Source: Methylobacter marinus A45 (lineage in GTDB: Bacteria; Pseudomonadota; Gammaproteobacteria; Methylococcales; Methylomonadaceae). From it: DNA of 64,000 nucleotides. The DNA lies in assembly GCF_000383855.1 (NCBI RefSeq), contig NZ_KB912877.1, forward strand, positions 248,001 through 312,000, given 5' to 3'. Position numbers and translations under genes: made by a program. Of this stretch, positions 39,013 through 48,111 are shown one piece after another (the first letter of the stretch is position 1; each line of letters opens with the position of its first letter). The notes beneath the pieces were generated by a model. It had not been told where the DNA came from, ran no database searches, and worked only from the letters and a program-made list of their open reading frames with translations.

Positions 39013-40455
39013 TCAGCTAATACTGACTGAATAAGAAAATTTACGTTTTCGGCTTTGGCCTATAATAGATAAACCCGCTAATCCCAAAGCAAACAAAATA
39101 AAGCTATTTGGCAGAGGAACCGCTGTCGGGGCTGTTAAAGGTGCGCCGCCGAAAGACAGAATGGTTTTCGCGGCAGCATTGAAATTATGCTTCCAGATAT
39201 TTCCGGCATTATCAACCGGATCAAAACCGATAAATAACTCAGGCAATAAAAGAGAATCAAGTCCAGTCTTGCTAAGATAGTCACGTAACCAATTTGAGTT
39301 ATTTTCATCGGCTTCAAGAATATTAAGTATCGGAGCAAACATATTAAACCCTTGGCTTTCGAATAATCGATCATCGAAAACCAGATTCGGCAGACTAGCC
39401 CTATACAAGACATTCCCGTTTTTATCGACAAGCCTTAGCTCTTTACCGGCAAAATACTCGCGACCGTCATAACTGGTTATGAGTTGTAACGGATCAATCT
39501 CCAGCATGCCGCCATTTAGTGGATCATTTTCGTAATGTTGATTGAACTCATTGGTAAGCGTATTAATGGATAAATCATCAAACGATAATATCTTGCGGTC
39601 CGCATCCCAATGAACCTGGCCGCTTTTACTATCTGGTGCAAAATGCCCTATCTTGTCTTCGACCTGATAGGCAGCTGCTGGAGGTGCTTCATATGATATC
39701 TCGGTATGGGTATTATCGATACCCAGCACCACTAAACCATTGTGGGTCAGTAAAGGAATATCCACATTCAGAGCCTGCGCATCTTCTTTTAACATGAGTT
39801 GATTCTGAAAATGCATTATATTGTCGTCAAACCAGTTTCTCAGAGAGTCGGCTACATTAAAATCACCTAAAAATTCCGTTGTGTGTTTCCCGTTTTCCAC
39901 AAAAGTAAAAAATCCGTAGCTGGACGTTGTACGCAAACCCGATGCCGACAGCTGTGTGATATTGATCGTATCGCTAATATAAGCAAAAGCAGAAACAGGC
40001 TCTGTCTTTAAATTAAATTTCGTGAAGTCCCAGTTAAGGTTTAGAAAAGAGGATGTTGTGTTTGTGAGATTGACTACCGAACCATGGCCAATGGCTGCCC
40101 CTTTTGAAAAAAGAGGCTCGGCCGAAAATGCTCCAGACGCAGTGTGAAAGGTATTATGAAATGTTGCTGTCGTTTCCCCGTCATTAGGAATCTGTACCAT
40201 GGCTGACGCTATGGCGCTGTGCATTGTCGGGGATGTCTGCTGGCCTGTGCTGGTGCTAACCGCCCTCGTATACGTTTCGCTGCTGGCATTGGCAAGGCTA
40301 TACAAAGGCACACTGTCGGGAATTGAGACTGTTATTACCAAATCACTCGATGTTTCTGCGAACGGTATTGATGTTGCTTGAGCATTTAAAGATAAAGATG
40401 AAGCGACTATAAATAAGCCCGTTAACTGAAATATGATGATCCTATGAGTATTCAT
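39013..40455 (-). CDS. PEP-CTERM-like sorted secreted protein, function unknown
   Basis: A 480-residue protein with a Sec signal (residues 5-27) and a C-terminal sorting signal: VPLPNSFILFALGLAGLSII, then a basic QSRKRK. This is the VPLP variant of the PEP-CTERM signal used with exosortase and exopolysaccharide-linked sorting. The body is Ser/Thr/Asn-rich with no recognised domain and no cysteine motif. A GGGAG ribosome site precedes the ATG. It is in the same orientation as the Fap-like cluster but 1.17 kb downstream of it, so co-transcription is unlikely. No exosortase gene is in the window. Confidence 0.78.
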   Translation of the reverse strand: MNTHRIIIFQLTGLFIVASSLSLNAQATSIPFAETSSDLVITVSIPDSVPLYSLANASSETYTRAVSTSTGQQTSPTMHSAIASAMVQIPNDGETTATFHNTFHTASGAFSAEPLFSKGAAIGHGSVVNLTNTTSSFLNLNWDFTKFNLKTEPVSAFAYISDTINITQLSASGLRTTSSYGFFTFVENGKHTTEFLGDFNVADSLRNWFDDNIMHFQNQLMLKEDAQALNVDIPLLTHNGLVVLGIDNTHTEISYEAPPAAAYQVEDKIGHFAPDSKSGQVHWDADRKILSFDDLSINTLTNEFNQHYENDPLNGGMLEIDPLQLITSYDGREYFAGKELRLVDKNGNVLYRASLPNLVFDDRLFESQGFNMFAPILNILEADENNSNWLRDYLSKTGLDSLLLPELFIGFDPVDNAGNIWKHNFNAAAKTILSFGGAPLTAPTAVPLPNSFILFALGLAGLSIIGQSRKRKFSYSVSIS

Positions 40456-41627: not shown

Positions 41628-42896
41628 CTAAAGTTCCGATTTAAAAGGAATATCAAACCTGAATGGAATGGTTACGTTTAAAAAATAATCAGGTGATGAC
41701 TCCGTCAGACCGATACCGCCGAGAACGGAGAAAAATAATCTGTGCCCGATGGTCGATGAAGCACCAAAAGTAAAGGCGCTCGAAACACCGTCACTGCCTG
41801 GCAATTCAATATCATTAATCTTGGTTTCTTGAATAAATGCCTGCTGTAAACCGATATTCAAAGAGGTCTGCGGACTGGCTGCCAATATTGCGGAGACCGA
41901 GAAATTAACCTGATCACCCGGTTCTATACCATTTCTCTCCAAGCTTGTTTGATAAGCGACTCTACCGGTAAAAGCCAGCGGATCCTGACGTTTTAGGAAT
42001 GTTAATGAACCAATGAAATCGTCAAATCCGATTCCCGTTGAAACATTATTGTCAGTAATATTGCCACTCGCGGAATCCCATGTAAATCGGGCTATTACAT
42101 CCGGAAGCCAATCACTCTCATGCATTAAGGTTTTAGCAATGCCGACACTCACATCACCAAAAGTTGAAGCACTGGATTTCATATCATTAGGGAATGCTCC
42201 GGGTATCGAGGTGACCACGGATTGTTCGATAAACCGGCCGGGAATACGCATTTCAGCCTGAGATTCAAAAGGCAGGCCAATCAGTAATGTTGCACCTGCA
42301 TCGATTTCGTCTCGGCGGACGCGTTGGTTGAGCACTAGCCCTCCTGCAGTGGCCAAAATAGGCGTATCAGCTTCTCTCCGTGTGTAGGTTGCATAGGGTT
42401 GAATTTCTGCCAGACCAAAGGGTAACAGTAAAGCACCAGTTTGGACTAATGTACGTTCCAATGCGCGTTGGGCTGCATCTTCATCTATTTCAAAACTACC
42501 TGGAGCTGAACTGGCTGATTGCTTGTTAGCCGATTTATTTTGAGCCTGCGGCTGATTCGCAGGTGGCAGTGATGCGGTTCTTTCAGGAGCACTTGTCGGA
42601 GCAACGCTACCTTTGGCGCTAGAATAGCGGCCGGCATCAGGGGCTGTAACAAGTTGCTCCAAATGCTGAACCCGACGCTGAAGATCAGCAATGACTTGAT
42701 CCCGTTCAGCAATTTTTTGTATCAGTTTGTTTTGTAAATTTGTTTCCGAAGTTTTATCTATTGCGTCCTGTGCGGCATAGCTCCAACTCGATACCAGCAT
42801 CCCCGTGCTAATCAATAAGATAAATTTTGATGAAATTTTCCAAGGTGGGACAGAATATTTCAGTGAGTTTATCCGATTATTATTATTTTTGGTCAT
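41628..42896 (-). CDS. FapF-like outer-membrane exporter with periplasmic coiled coil
   Basis: A 422-residue protein with the architecture of FapF, the outer-membrane channel of the functional amyloid (Fap) system. Order: signal/membrane segment (about 24-41, ending SYAA), a heptad coiled coil (about 50-87, with AERDQVIADLQRRVQHLEQL), a Pro/Ser/Gln-rich linker (about 90-135), a short helix ALERTLVQTGALLLPFGLAE and a beta-barrel to the end. FapF is a trimer whose coiled coil and helical plug gate export of amyloid subunits. The upstream neighbour is a C39 peptidase (FapD type) 7 bases away, as in fap operons. No FapB or FapC gene is present; the likely cargo is the small proteins at 43893-45171. 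Recognition rests on architecture and the helix-barrel junction. Confidence 0.72.
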   Translation of the reverse strand: MTKNNNNRINSLKYSVPPWKISSKFILLISTGMLVSSWSYAAQDAIDKTSETNLQNKLIQKIAERDQVIADLQRRVQHLEQLVTAPDAGRYSSAKGSVAPTSAPERTASLPPANQPQAQNKSANKQSASSAPGSFEIDEDAAQRALERTLVQTGALLLPFGLAEIQPYATYTRREADTPILATAGGLVLNQRVRRDEIDAGATLLIGLPFESQAEMRIPGRFIEQSVVTSIPGAFPNDMKSSASTFGDVSVGIAKTLMHESDWLPDVIARFTWDSASGNITDNNVSTGIGFDDFIGSLTFLKRQDPLAFTGRVAYQTSLERNGIEPGDQVNFSVSAILAASPQTSLNIGLQQAFIQETKINDIELPGSDGVSSAFTFGASSTIGHRLFFSVLGGIGLTESSPDYFLNVTIPFRFDIPFKSEL

Positions 42897-42903
42897 AAAA
42901 TAC

Positions 42904-43680
42904 CTATCGTGTCATTACAAATTCGCGTGATTCAGGCTTCAAGCGATTAGGCGGTTCAGCTCCATCAAGCCTAGTAATTACAAAACCGACCTTGCCTATT
43001 TTAGGGAAATCGATTCTCATCTTTTCAAACATATCAACAAGCATTGTCCGGTTACCCCACGCAGGATCCGCCAATAATACACGGTTGCCTTGTATCCCCC
43101 GAAAGATAACAAAATGGTTATATCCCATAATACTTATCGGAACAATGATTGGAGCCTTTTTAATAAGGTCATCAAGCGTGAGTTTACCATAGCCCATGCC
43201 TTTGTAACCATGAGCATCTGCATAACGTTTAAGGTCCAGTAACGAAAAACCCTGGCGAATATTGACCAACCCCGGATTTTTGATGTATTCATCCCTGCTC
43301 ATCAGCGCTTTTGCAACTTCCTTTTCCGTTACCGGATCACCATGCTGGTAATTTAAAAGCGTGGTTAGAGTTGCCGCGCCGCAACTCAGATCCCATTGTT
43401 GTATAACGACATTCTCGTGCCGCATTTCAATCAATGACTTCACAGAACGGGCCGGGGAAATTCCTGGATAGCTTCCTATCAGACACAGCAATAGCCCCAG
43501 TTTTTTAGCTGTTAAAAAATCCCTCCAAGTCAGTGTCATTAATTTTTGCATACCTGTTATGCCGGAGATAATAGGTTTTTCAGAAGTAAGCCTTGAACAA
43601 AAGCGCTTCAGCATTGAAACAAGGGAAAACCCGTGACCGAATAAACAATAACTATCTTTTTTATATGTAAATATAGGCAT
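42904..43680 (-). CDS. C39-family peptidase, FapD-like
   Basis: A 258-residue protein with a C39 papain-like domain. The catalytic Cys is in QWDLSCGAATLTTLLNY, the His in GYNHFVIFRGI and the Asp/Asn region in VLLADPAWGN. A hydrophobic segment about 60 residues in (LGLLLCLIGSYPGISPA) is a signal peptide or anchor, so the domain is periplasmic. The ATG at 43680 has a GGAG ribosome site; ATGs at 43707, 43551 and 43539 are alternatives, the last two giving a normal Sec signal. C39 peptidases cut after double-glycine-type leaders. In fap operons FapD is needed for amyloid export. Here it lies between the FapF-like gene (7-base gap) and the small cargo genes. Confidence 0.82.
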   Translation of the reverse strand: MPIFTYKKDSYCLFGHGFSLVSMLKRFCSRLTSEKPIISGITGMQKLMTLTWRDFLTAKKLGLLLCLIGSYPGISPARSVKSLIEMRHENVVIQQWDLSCGAATLTTLLNYQHGDPVTEKEVAKALMSRDEYIKNPGLVNIRQGFSLLDLKRYADAHGYKGMGYGKLTLDDLIKKAPIIVPISIMGYNHFVIFRGIQGNRVLLADPAWGNRTMLVDMFEKMRIDFPKIGKVGFVITRLDGAEPPNRLKPESREFVMTR

Positions 43681-43768
43681 TTTTATCTCCAGTAGAATTA
43701 TTTCCATTGAAGCTTCCGAATGGAGCCAGGAGAAATCATTTTTTGATATTTTTATTTTTTGTAAAAAA

Positions 43769-43815
43769 GTCGTGGAAAAAGAAAACGCCCCGCATTATCA
43801 TTTAATGCGAGGCGT
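43769..43815 (-). terminator. Rho-independent terminator between cargo and exporter genes
   Basis: On the minus strand ACGCCTCGCATT pairs with AATGCGGGGCGT (12 pairs, one G-U) around a 7-base loop and is followed by TTTTCTTTTT. It lies 78 bases past the stop of the last small cargo gene and before the C39 gene, so it would give excess cargo transcript over exporter transcript. Confidence 0.8.
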
Positions 43816-43892
43816 AACTTGAACTAGTGCGCTTTGAGTGGGATCCGCCTCTCACGCTTCAACATAAAGAGGCGTTTCCTGCTTTTTCTTCT

Positions 43893-44237
43893 TTAGAATA
43901 ATGTAGCTGATGAAGAAGAGCCGCTGAAAGCTACGGCGCCATTAGTAGGGACACCTAAAGCATAGCTAGAAAGCGCTGCTGAAGTGCCTTCCGCACCTGA
44001 AACAACAAAACCCAAACCAGGTTGAACATCAACTTCAGCATTTGTATATGTTATGCCGAGCAGGTTAGAAATAGCTCCAGCACCAGAATCAGCATAGCCA
44101 GCGCCTTCAAATACCACTAATGCACCAGCACTGACGCCGTCCATTTGATCTGCGGACAAAGCCATAGGTTCAGCGCTTACGCCGCCAGCAATTACCAACA
44201 TTGAAGCACCTGCTAACAAACTAGTTAATTTATTCAT
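43893..44237 (-). CDS. Small Sec-exported protein with QMD-x-V-SAG leader motif (cargo 3)
   Basis: A 114-residue protein. A Sec signal (ending GVSAEP, about residue 24) is followed by the motif LSADQMDGVSAG (about 28-39), then a Gly/Ala/Ser/Thr-rich body with almost no charge, ending SSATLF. The motif LxxxQMDxVxAG occurs in the two genes upstream. Its AG end resembles the GG/GA sites cut by C39 peptidases, and a C39 gene lies 200 bases downstream. The uncharged, small-residue composition would suit an amyloid or secreted structural subunit. GGAGA ribosome site. No family name known to me. Confidence 0.75.
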   Translation of the reverse strand: MNKLTSLLAGASMLVIAGGVSAEPMALSADQMDGVSAGALVVFEGAGYADSGAGAISNLLGITYTNAEVDVQPGLGFVVSGAEGTSAALSSYALGVPTNGAVAFSGSSSSATLF

Positions 44238-44295
44238 TTTATATTCTCCAAATTATTGAATAGCACATTACTTTAAATACAATATTAGACAGGTC

Positions 44296-44580
44296 TTACA
44301 GCGCAGCACCTGATGCAGAAGAGTAAGAGAATGTATAATCTTGAGTAATCTGGCCAGCTTGAGTTGGAATGGATTGCAAAACGATAACACCTGTTGCAGT
44401 GTTAGTGTATGTCGCAGCGGCAAATAAACCTGCGGCAGCAGCATAAGCGTCAGCCACGGCAAGACCAGCGGCCGATACATTATCCATTTGTGTTTCTGTC
44501 AGGGCGACTGGCTCATCAGCAAATGCAGAACCCATGCCCAAAACCAGTACGCTTGCAGCAATTGTTTTTATTAATTTCAT
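44296..44580 (-). CDS. Small Sec-exported protein with QMD-x-V-SAA motif (cargo 2)
   Basis: A 94-residue protein with Sec signal (residues 1-21, ending SAFA) and LTETQMDNVSAAG immediately after, then an Ala/Thr-rich segment (LAVADAYAAAAGLFAAATYT) and a Ser/Ala C-terminus YSSASGAAL. Fifty-eight bases separate it from cargo 3. The ribosome region AACTGAGG-N8-ATG is nearly the same as that of cargo 1 at 45171, supporting common descent or regulation. Predicted substrate of the FapD/FapF-like pair. Confidence 0.72.
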   Translation of the reverse strand: MKLIKTIAASVLVLGMGSAFADEPVALTETQMDNVSAAGLAVADAYAAAAGLFAAATYTNTATGVIVLQSIPTQAGQITQDYTFSYSSASGAAL

Positions 44581-44727
44581 AGCAAAACACCTCAGTTTAA
44601 TTTATCTAACAAATACCTTAAGTCCTTTAAAACTTAAGGGGTTTCTTAGCCTGTCCCAAGCATAATGCTCGAAGACATTCTAAATTCTTTCAATCTGAAC
44701 AAACCAAGCTGATGTCAGTGATTCGTG

Positions 44728-45171
44728 TTAAAAAGGAAGAGCTGTAGGCGCAATGACCGCAACAATGGCACTTCCGCTCAGGTTACTTATAGAGCCTGAT
44801 GATTTAACGTCGACTTGGATGGAATGAACATTTGAGCCGGTTATGCCCACTGTTGGTGTTACAGATGTGTCCGCCGCAGCTCCATCGCCCACAGCGCTTG
44901 CCTGGGCCAGCCCTCCGACAGCAAATCCCCCTCCCGGAAGTTTGGGATTATCGCCGCCCGCCACTGTAATGGCCGCAGTAGTGGTTTTTGTGAGCGCTAA
45001 AACATTGGAAATAGCTATTGCCCCCGCATCAACGTCGATACTTGAACCTGCAGTCACCTGATCCATTTCACCCGCTGTAAGTAGTGTCGGACTTGACTTC
45101 ATTGTTTCCGCTTCTGCAACTGATATAGCTGCACAGGCAGGTATTAATATATAAGCAAATTTTTTAATCAT
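44728..45171 (-). CDS. Small Sec-exported protein with EMD-x-V-TAG motif (cargo 1)
   Basis: A 147-residue protein and the first gene of the cargo group. The signal peptide (1-20) is followed by LLTAGEMDQVTAGSS, the same motif as in the two downstream genes, and a long low-charge body with AGAIAISNVLALTKTTTAA, Gly/Ala-rich stretches and the end IAPTALPF. AISN-x-L is shared with cargo 3. The C-terminal aromatic residue also recurs (TLF, LPF), reminiscent of the end of FapC. GAGGGG ribosome site. Predicted exported amyloid-like or matrix subunit. Confidence 0.72.
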   Translation of the reverse strand: MIKKFAYILIPACAAISVAEAETMKSSPTLLTAGEMDQVTAGSSIDVDAGAIAISNVLALTKTTTAAITVAGGDNPKLPGGGFAVGGLAQASAVGDGAAADTSVTPTVGITGSNVHSIQVDVKSSGSISNLSGSAIVAVIAPTALPF

Positions 45172-46260: not shown

Positions 46261-46626
46261 CTATTGCTCTTGATTTAACCAATACCAGTTCTCAACAATC
46301 AGATTTGCACGACGTCCTTTGTGCTCAGAAGGATAATTTTTCGCTAAATATGTCAGTATTTCTTCTTCGGTTTCCGCAGTCAGTTGATGCAAGCCTTGCG
46401 TATCTTGCATCCATCGAATCGTTTTCAACCAACCTTCTCGGGTTGCCCTGTTTTGTATGATCAATTTTGCTGAATGACAAACAGTGCACTCGGATTTTAC
46501 CTTGAGATATCCCTGATCAATAATCAAACCCGTCTTAGCGTCTATATTAGGTCGCGATACCAGCTGCTGAGCGAATAACAGCGACAAGACAAAAATCATA
46601 ACCCTAACCCTAACAGATAAACTCAT
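46261..46626 (-). CDS. Small monohaem cytochrome c, probable sulfite dehydrogenase subunit
   Basis: A 121-residue protein with a signal peptide (to about LVSRP) and one haem motif CTVCHS near residue 50. The WLKTIRWMQDTQGL segment carries the likely axial Met. Downstream of a molybdopterin sulfite oxidase gene in the same direction, it matches the electron-accepting cytochrome subunit of SorAB/SoxCD-like enzymes. The ATG at 46653 falls inside the repeat B copy; the ATG at 46626 has an AGGA ribosome site 8 bases upstream and starts directly before the signal, so I use that. The two subunit genes are separated by the 157-bp element. Confidence 0.78.
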   Translation of the reverse strand: MSLSVRVRVMIFVLSLLFAQQLVSRPNIDAKTGLIIDQGYLKVKSECTVCHSAKLIIQNRATREGWLKTIRWMQDTQGLHQLTAETEEEILTYLAKNYPSEHKGRRANLIVENWYWLNQEQ

Positions 46627-46638
46627 GACAGTTCCTGA

Positions 46639-46795
46639 CTCGTATTCAGTCAATTTAATTTTGGCGGTTAAATTGTAGGTGCGAATTCATTTACGCCCTA
46701 TGGGTACTTGTGCCCTTGAGGGTATTCGCACTATTCGTACACCATGAATGCTCTGCAACTTTTTACTCGTCAGAACAAGGCTGACTGCGTACTAG
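46639..46795 (+). repeat. Repeat B (MITE-like), copy 2, between sulfite dehydrogenase genes
   Basis: Homologous to 38648-38803 along its full length, with TIRs CTCGTATTCAGTC and GACTGCGTACTAG. Its right end (complement of CTA) supplies the TAG stop codon of the molybdopterin subunit gene, so the element inserted at or just inside the original gene end. Its internal hairpin now lies in the intergenic message between the two subunits. Confidence 0.8.
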
Positions 46796-48111
46796 GTTAC
46801 TTTAACGGCAATTCGGTGGCAGGCATTATTGAGGTAACCTTTCGGATTCCAGCCCGGCACCACCATGGGCTGCATTTTTCCGGCACTGTCGGTCGCCCTG
46901 ACCCAGACCTCGTAATAACCGGGACCGGGAAAATCCAGCTCCGCCTGCCAATGCTGCCAGGCCAACCGGTTTTTAGGCTGCCGCAGCTTACAACGCTGCC
47001 AGGTCGCACCGAAATCATTGGAAATATCCACAGCCGATACACTCAAATCTCCCGCCCAAGCATGGCCACGCAGTGACAACTTCTGTCCAGCCTTGATCAT
47101 CGCCCCTGTTTTTGGATAGGTAATCAGCGATTTAACCGGCATGGACTCGATAATACACATATCCTCATCCTTAACATTGCTTCCCGGCTCAACAGGGTGG
47201 CAAGGCACCTTATAAGAAAGCCCGGTCATTTTGGCGCCATCGTGGATTTTATTGCGCACGACAATTTTACTGAGCCATTTTCCCGACGTGGAAGCAGGCC
47301 AGCCTCCGCAGACCAATCTTAACGGGTGACCGTTCATGGCCGGCATATCCGCACCATTCATGGCCCATGCAATCAGCGTTTCATCTTCAAGCGCCTTGCT
47401 CATCGGTACGCCTCTGGAAATAGAATCAAGACTGGATTTGCCGCTGATATGTGTATCACGCCCGTAATAGCCTATATAAACCGCGTCATCTTTAATGCCT
47501 AACGATTCCAGCACATCCCGAAGACGCACGCCGGTCCATTCAGGACAACCTACCGCCCCAACCGTCCATTGCCCCTCGGGAACTGGCGGATTAAATTCAC
47601 TCCTGCCATTACCGGCGCATTCGATCGTTAATTGGTACGTATAATGTTTAAATTTCCGTTTCAGCTCTTCAAGGCTGAACTGGGCATGGGATTCGATGGA
47701 TTCGCCTTCGATGCGCAGCATCCAGGCGGCGGGATCAATGTTTTCAGGCGGAATACCATTGTTGCGGATAAATAATTTATCAACCGGGGTAATTAAATCA
47801 TCCAGTAGGTGGGCTGGTGTTTCCGCACTGACGGGCCTGTCATTCACCACAATCAGGCCGGGATGCTTACCAGGAATATGGAAAGATTCATCGGTATCTG
47901 CAAAAGCGGCTGGTATCAACCCGCCAGGCATATTGTCGGCAAAAGGGATATGGGCGCCCAGTGCAGCGCTCATCGCCCATAACCCGCTTTTCTTTAAAAA
48001 CCCTCGCCGGGAAACCGGCTCGACTTCCCTGCCCCAAATGAGCTGATCTGCTTTCTCAGGATTGTCTCTATATAGCTCATGAATACCTCTCAGGATGCTT
48101 TTGTTCTTCAT
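46792..48111 (-). CDS. Sulfite oxidase/dehydrogenase molybdopterin subunit (SorA/SoxC-like)
   Basis: A 439-residue Tat-exported enzyme. Twin-arginine signal PVSRRGFLKKSGLWAMSAAL begins near residue 33. The molybdopterin domain shows HLLDDLITPVDKLFIRN, the Mo-ligating Cys in LTIECAGNGRSEF, GAVGCPEWTGVRLRDVL and LRLVCGGWPASTSGKWL; the dimerisation domain follows (ISNDFGATWQRCKL, WVRATDSAGKMQP). It oxidises sulfite, or a sulfur intermediate in Sox-type pathways, to sulfate in the periplasm and passes electrons to the cytochrome encoded next. Its stop codon lies inside a repeat B end, so the last residues could differ from the ancestral ones. Confidence 0.9.
   Translation of the reverse strand: MKNKSILRGIHELYRDNPEKADQLIWGREVEPVSRRGFLKKSGLWAMSAALGAHIPFADNMPGGLIPAAFADTDESFHIPGKHPGLIVVNDRPVSAETPAHLLDDLITPVDKLFIRNNGIPPENIDPAAWMLRIEGESIESHAQFSLEELKRKFKHYTYQLTIECAGNGRSEFNPPVPEGQWTVGAVGCPEWTGVRLRDVLESLGIKDDAVYIGYYGRDTHISGKSSLDSISRGVPMSKALEDETLIAWAMNGADMPAMNGHPLRLVCGGWPASTSGKWLSKIVVRNKIHDGAKMTGLSYKVPCHPVEPGSNVKDEDMCIIESMPVKSLITYPKTGAMIKAGQKLSLRGHAWAGDLSVSAVDISNDFGATWQRCKLRQPKNRLAWQHWQAELDFPGPGYYEVWVRATDSAGKMQPMVVPGWNPKGYLNNACHRIAVKVT

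Follow-up and report, generated by a model that had tools for sequence, protein, structure and literature searches.

A locus encoding three small Sec-type proteins, a stand-alone C39 peptidase and an outer-membrane exporter was analysed in a 64,000-nucleotide stretch of Methylobacter marinus A45 DNA (positions 248001-312000 of the main contig; genome 5.0 Mb), referred to here as the window. The small proteins, the presumed cargos, have in common the motif L-x3-[QE]-M-D-x-V-[ST]-A-[GA] just behind the Sec-type signal, and the register of this motif identifies it as a predicted double-glycine-type leader placed behind a Sec signal. The whole locus is probably a module of the Fap/Fil type, in which cargos would be exported by Sec, cut at the leader by the C39 enzyme in the periplasm and released through a FapF-type pore as an abundant extracellular fibre or matrix. 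This two-step route had been put forward in the original prediction, made from the window sequence alone, and is the best-supported reading of the profile and fold matches and of the linkage between the motif and C39/pore pairs; within it, cleavage of the leader, passage through the pore and, most of all, a fibre or matrix as the product are inferred. All five genes lie on the minus strand and are transcribed in the order cargo 1, cargo 2, cargo 3, C39, exporter. Their open reading frames (ORFs), strand, coordinates, motif and architecture had all been called correctly.

Leader motif

Cargo 1 (44728..45171, minus strand; 147 residues) consists of a Sec signal, the leader LTAGEMDQVTAG (positions -12 to -1; 45046..45081, minus strand) and a Gly/Ala/Ser-rich mature part of 105 residues, and its homologues adjoin the C39 gene in relatives. 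Cargo 2 (44296..44580, minus strand; 94 residues) has the leader LTETQMDNVSAA (44467..44502, minus strand) and a mature part of 56 residues. In cargo 3 (43893..44237, minus strand; 114 residues), the leader LSADQMDGVSAG (44124..44159, minus strand) precedes a mature part of 76 residues.

With the last leader residue numbered -1, the window leaders read L-12, Q/E-8, M-7, D-6, V-4, A-2 and G/A-1. The structure of PCAT1 gave a C39-bound leader consensus of L(-12)xxxE(-8)L(-7)xxxxG(-2)G(-1), where residues -7 and -12 make a hydrophobic knot and residue -4 confers specificity (PMC6959990). The window leaders follow the double-glycine consensus (L-12, E-8, L-7, -4, G-2, G-1), the exceptions being Ala for Gly at -2 and the Asp at -6. 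The earlier observation that the motif resembles a C39 cleavage site directly behind a signal peptide thus fits the leader register of C39 enzymes. Among 176 cargos, the related-locus set with the window included, Q/E was found at -8 in 153, Val at -4 in 149, Ala at -2 in 172 and Gly at -1 in 155; the presence of M/L-7 and D-6 in 176 of 176 was imposed by the search pattern. In 132 of 174 cargos, the leader started 3-5 residues past the signal-peptidase site (AxA), so that the chain would still carry a propeptide of about 17 residues once the Sec signal had been cut off.

C39 peptidase and leader types

The C39 peptidase (42904..43707, minus strand; 267 residues) has an N-terminal hydrophobic signal and the catalytic residues Cys109, His198 and Asp214. 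It matched Pfam Peptidase_C39 (E-value 1.3e-12), NCBIfam FilB (3e-30; 105 of the 475 cut-off bits) and NCBIfam FapD (5e-24; 85 of the 330 cut-off bits), and the solved structures closest to it were the C39 domains of peptidase-containing ATP-binding cassette (ABC) transporters (PCATs), LahT first. When 116 C39 domains were placed in a tree, the window type formed a single clade of 83 rows (bootstrap 100; Shimodaira-Hasegawa-like approximate likelihood ratio test 90). The catalytic Cys, His and Asp were intact in all 83 members, and the Gln at the first-Gln position was invariant in the C39 alignment. The window enzyme lay outside the FapD-like clade, and FilB-like sequences formed yet another. 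The original description of a FapD-like C39 therefore stands as regards the family matches and the intact catalytic residues; the score under the FapD cut-off and the position in the tree separate the enzyme from FapD itself.

The leaders found near the 83-row clade were AG-type or absent, with no other ending. The endings in the other clades were RGG/RGR in Fap-like clusters (23 rows, with weaker support of 89/62), VTGQ in Fil-like clusters and TEGG in a fourth group. The group labels were set by hand for clusters with a plausible secreted carrier, and the loose RGG label also caught arginine-rich out-of-frame ORFs. All four leader types have the same register, as in ASDSELDLLRGG, LQDSELASTEGG and LDDAALADVTGQ.

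The fourth type, with ELASTEGG-like leaders and its own C39 clade, was seen on small Sec proteins with C39/FapF-like pairs in methanotrophs (L065:4157-4447, L066:8777-9577, L067:7374-7700 and L071:5203-5514). In a Nitrospirae bin (L193:3974-7852), the C39 enzyme itself has a leader-like site, TSDEELELITAGG, in its C-terminal tail. A lone C39 at C1:2.99 Mb was set aside as a likely ABC transporter, being part of a 730-residue frame.

Exporter

The exporter (41628..42896, minus strand; 422 residues) matched NCBIfam FapF with an E-value of 1.4e-6 and 27 bits against a cut-off of 700, and no NCBIfam match to FilC was obtained. A profile of 46 exporter relatives matched the solved FapF (E-value 5e-24). 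An AlphaFold2 model (predicted local distance difference test score, pLDDT, 84; mostly >90 in the barrel) comprised a coiled coil at residues 51-84 (42645..42746, minus strand; assigned by DSSP), a disordered linker, a plug-type helix at residues 139-152 (42441..42482, minus strand) and a beta-barrel of about 12 strands at residues 162-415 (41652..42413, minus strand). The helix, with DEDAAQRALERTL, is the best-conserved stretch and corresponds to the pore-plugging helix of FapF. When the model was searched with Foldseek, the best 18 matches were all FapF chains (E-values 1e-17 to 3e-13; target TM-score 0.71-0.80). The exporter is accordingly modelled as a FapF-fold outer-membrane protein, in agreement with the coiled coil, linker, helix and barrel first read from its sequence, and by analogy it is assumed to be a trimer.

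Profiles of FapF, FapD and C39 thus gave matches for the two machinery proteins, to which the fold comparison was added. Since the NCBIfam FapF and FapD cut-offs were missed, the proteins are termed FapF-fold and FapD-like, and the plain names FapF and FapD are not applied to them. The exporters of L059-L062 and L117 start with a lipobox-like SGCASV or SSCASV, which suggests a lipid-anchored N-terminus; the window exporter has no such start.

Association of the motif with the C39 peptidase

GTDB genomes were scanned with the C39 alignment, which gave 80 loci in alpha-, beta- and gammaproteobacteria and one Nitrospirae bin. Motif ORFs preceded by a hydrophobic stretch were found in 67 of these, 173 in all, compared with none in the same DNA reversed or complemented. 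One to six divergent cargo paralogues were present per locus. Across the three proteobacterial classes, 155 of the 176 cargos lay within 3 kb of the C39 gene and 151 were on its strand. The only components recurring in most neighbourhoods were cargo, C39 and FapF. A regulator-like family (e.g. L182:3416-6313, AAA_16-TPR-LuxR) was seen near 26 of loci L114-L193, mostly on the other strand, with a loose similarity grouping.

Motif censuses of whole genomes were performed by DNA pattern. In 151 genomes of the family, the pattern gave 36 matches and the reversed pattern none. The motif was present in 11 of 11 genomes with this C39 type (at least 55% identity) vs 1 of 140 without it (Fisher p 7e-16, kinship ignored). 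The 11 carriers span six genera, most of which also contain non-carriers, so the C39 type and the motif come and go in step. In a phylum-wide draw of 397 genomes, the strict motif occurred only in the genome of the window and one other, and these two alone had this C39 type. It had been specified in advance that motif proteins should mostly be encoded beside C39/FapF pairs; 24 of the 36 sites adjoined such a pair, in line with the 3 kb distances in the wider set. Neither of the two outcomes named beforehand as refuting the prediction was observed. The association of motif and C39 is far above chance.

Two congeners have the C39/pore pair without adjacent cargos; in these, the motif is borne by other small proteins that are encoded at other places in the genome, so the association outlasts the loss of linkage. 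The sole motif-bearing genome without a matching C39, G016, encodes two AG-leader cargos beside transposase genes (L112:5665-7369), and the system is probably decaying there. An orphan AG-leader protein of 83 residues (L022:3154-3405; G000:C1:4235.7 kb) was also seen elsewhere in the genome of the window and is likely to be a cargo in trans.

These data bear on the idea that the C39 and the pore serve another role, such as uptake of hydrophobic substrates as in COG4313 channels, with the motif proteins as mere neighbours. The COG4313 channel 4rl8 is indeed the next structural match of the exporter after FapF. Set against this are the register match to C39 leaders, the co-occurrence where the genes are unlinked and the clade-specific leader types, which together make a mere neighbourhood highly improbable.

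Cargo proteins and expression

Between loci, the cargo leaders were on average 57% identical. The mature parts were 27.9% identical per shorter length vs 26.3% for shuffled sequence; their median length was 81 residues, with 58% G/A/S/T/V and 9% charged residues. Their hydrophobic periodicity was under the shuffled level at 100 degrees (z -0.44 +/- 0.08) and slightly over it at 170-180 degrees (z +0.35 to +0.38 +/- 0.1), a weak indication of a tilt toward beta structure and away from an amphipathic helix.

The three window cargos had no Pfam or NCBIfam family match, including to FapA, FapB, FapC or FapE. Searches of the larger cargos and a sample of the others against the same databases revealed one real domain, TIGR03118. 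This domain, which is named for PEP-CTERM proteins, spans 332 residues of a large cargo (L190:5796-6914) that is encoded just upstream of C39 and has the AG-type leader LNDAQLDAVVAG; the leader can thus precede a known domain. Large cargos of 270-339 residues with N/Q-containing repeats, LRALTLNNVFGENQVATGTNI, were observed in the Nitrospirae bin (L193:3974-7852).

Between the cargo and machinery genes of the window lies a terminator-like hairpin (43785..43815, minus strand) of 13 bp with 7 G-C pairs, followed by TTTTCTTTTTC (-20.7 kcal/mol; z -5.4). The cargo/C39 gap was testable in 36 loci, where the best 40-nt hairpin had a median of -22.7 kcal/mol and a mean z of -4.8 vs shuffled gaps; strong hairpins resembling that of the window were present in most comparable gaps. 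Acting as a partial terminator, the hairpin would allow cargo to be made in excess over peptidase and pore, as would be expected for a structural product.

Antimicrobial peptides of the class II microcin or bacteriocin kind are also marked by double-glycine leaders, a C39 enzyme and small mature parts that are rich in Gly/Ala and change fast; the cargos could be such peptides, matured by the C39 and released via the FapF-type pore. However, the locus has no ABC transporter and a Sec signal precedes the leader, the neighbourhood survey showed no small immunity gene recurring beside the cargos, and the amphipathic-helix periodicity lies under the shuffled level. One cargo is the 332-residue domain described above, and the cargos precede a strong hairpin, as abundant products would. 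An antimicrobial role is therefore considered improbable.

Of the flanking genes, a PEP-CTERM protein downstream (window 39013-40455) and a sulfite dehydrogenase-like pair upstream (cytochrome c and molybdopterin oxidoreductase-like; window 46261-48111) gave no sign of membership in the system.

Fap-like and Fil-like clusters

That FapA, FapB, FapC and FapE are missing holds for the locus; the same genome, however, contains a Fap-like cluster apart from this locus, at C1:1.429-1.433 Mb (L014; G000:C1:1428943-1433186). It encodes a FapF-like protein of 445 residues, a FapE-like protein with DLAQLRGGF, a C39, a 124-residue protein and a 256-residue N/S/D-repeat protein. With an RGG-type FapE encoded separately in this way, the AG system is not the Fap operon of the host. 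The FapE-like proteins of Fap-like clusters matched NCBIfam FapE over the signal and leader region only, and several of these clusters encode a second small protein with a similar RGG/RGR site. In a Methylobacter bin (L117:5224-11485), immediately after an AG-leader cluster comes a Fap-like one that has a C39 of its own and no second FapF nearby, possibly an arrangement of one pore, two peptidases and two leader types.

The Fil-like cluster L238 encodes FilB, FilC, which itself matches FapF, and a protein of the FilA type whose leader is of the VTGQ kind. The FilA/DUF6160 subunit is absent from the window locus, as are FilD, FilE and FilF. FilA has been reported as the Fil fimbria subunit (PMC3498257; PMC11784438), and the N-terminus of Acinetobacter FilA has been determined by Edman sequencing (PMC3498257). 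By analogy, the FilA-type protein of L238 is the strongest precedent for a fibre made of a protein that bears a leader.

Proposed export route

In the proposed route, the cargo would cross the inner membrane via Sec and lose its signal peptide. The remaining chain would begin with the propeptide of about 17 residues, in effect a double-glycine-type leader shifted to the periplasm. The stand-alone C39 would dock on L-12, M/L-7 and V-4 and cut after A-G (or A-A), and the freed, largely low-charge mature chain would then pass through the trimeric FapF-type pore. Outside the cell, the exported chains would build the abundant fibre or surface matrix. The leader would serve as a conserved address, leaving the mature part free to change.

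Several observations weigh against this route. No motif protein was found nearby in 13 of the 80 C39 loci, and the census statistic is inflated because the genomes are related to one another. The AlphaFold2 model of cargo 2 was uninformative (pLDDT 53), and the window cargos have no obvious N/Q amyloid repeats. Furthermore, the main repeat subunits of Fap systems lack a leader, which is present only on the FapE-like and second small proteins, so the leader proteins of the window could be accessory. Under such a scheme they would be FapE-like accessory or gating factors, whose cleavage by C39 opens the pore for unlinked main subunits; Rouse et al. propose that FapE cleavage activates FapF (PMC5557850). 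However, no other secreted gene recurs in the neighbourhoods, and five carrier genomes have no second C39 and hence no Fap operon of the usual make-up. Each locus has one to six divergent paralogues, and a leader that is conserved while the mature part is free of constraint is typical of cargo and not of a conserved regulator. An accessory role thus appears unlikely, and the export of the leader proteins themselves as fibre or matrix components remains the preferred reading.

Whether stand-alone periplasmic C39 enzymes and FapF-type pores constitute a general modular secretion pathway of Gram-negative bacteria, in which the leader ending (AG, RGG, GQ or TEGG) names the peptidase clade, is judged to be evenly balanced. 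If so, the amyloid of Fap and the fimbriae of Fil would be two particular instances of it, and the AG type would add a third branch, as yet without a name, for hypervariable cargos that range from 25-residue peptides to whole domains; the leader code would also predict FapD substrates. FapD is essential for Fap amyloid secretion, and its substrate was still given as undetermined in the papers of 2017-2018 that were covered (PMC5557850; PMC6173800). As the register is common to four C39 clades, the FapD substrate question becomes directly testable. The trio of tag, protease and pore would also define a means of export that is recognisable from sequence data alone and by which cargos of choice could be brought to the cell surface in laboratory strains. 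Methanotrophs, ammonia oxidisers and purple sulfur bacteria are among the organisms that carry the system, and little is known of their surface matrices.

Comparison with known systems

The PCATs (PCAT1/CtA, LahT and ComA) have in common with the window system the C39 domain and the leader positions -12, -8, -7, -4, -2 and -1. They differ in that the window system has no ABC transporter and presents its leader behind a Sec signal, in the periplasm. The COG4313 hydrophobic-substrate channels have a related barrel fold; C39 peptidases are not reported with their operons in the available part of a 2018 review (PMC6173800).

The Fap system of Pseudomonas (FapABCDEF) likewise has a Sec-exported C39 adjoining a pore of the FapF fold, complete with coiled coil, linker and helix, and the FapE-like proteins of Fap-like clusters have a leader in the same register. 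FapD is periplasmic and its catalytic Cys is required for FapC secretion; Rouse et al. could not identify its target and drew attention to the GG/GA motifs of FapE (PMC5557850). The portion of the 2018 review covered also regards the substrate as undetermined and mentions that five further phyla have fapD/fapF pairs, with no account of any cargos (PMC6173800). Unlike Fap, the window locus lacks FapA/B/C/E, every cargo carries a leader that ends in AG rather than RGG, the C39 belongs to a separate clade, and its proteins score far under the FapF and FapD equivalog cut-offs.

The Fil system (FilA-F) of Acinetobacter and relatives also has a C39 (FilB) and a homologue of FapF (FilC), together with FilA (DUF6160), a putative fimbria subunit that bears a leader, whereas the window leader ends in AG, not GQ, and the window cargos are unrelated to FilA. 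In the open-access literature, no earlier account was found in which AG-leader cargos are described together with a C39 and FapF. The system works like Fap and Fil secretion but, by the tests run, belongs to neither, and it is most likely a third branch of the Fap/Fil kind in which every cargo bears a leader.

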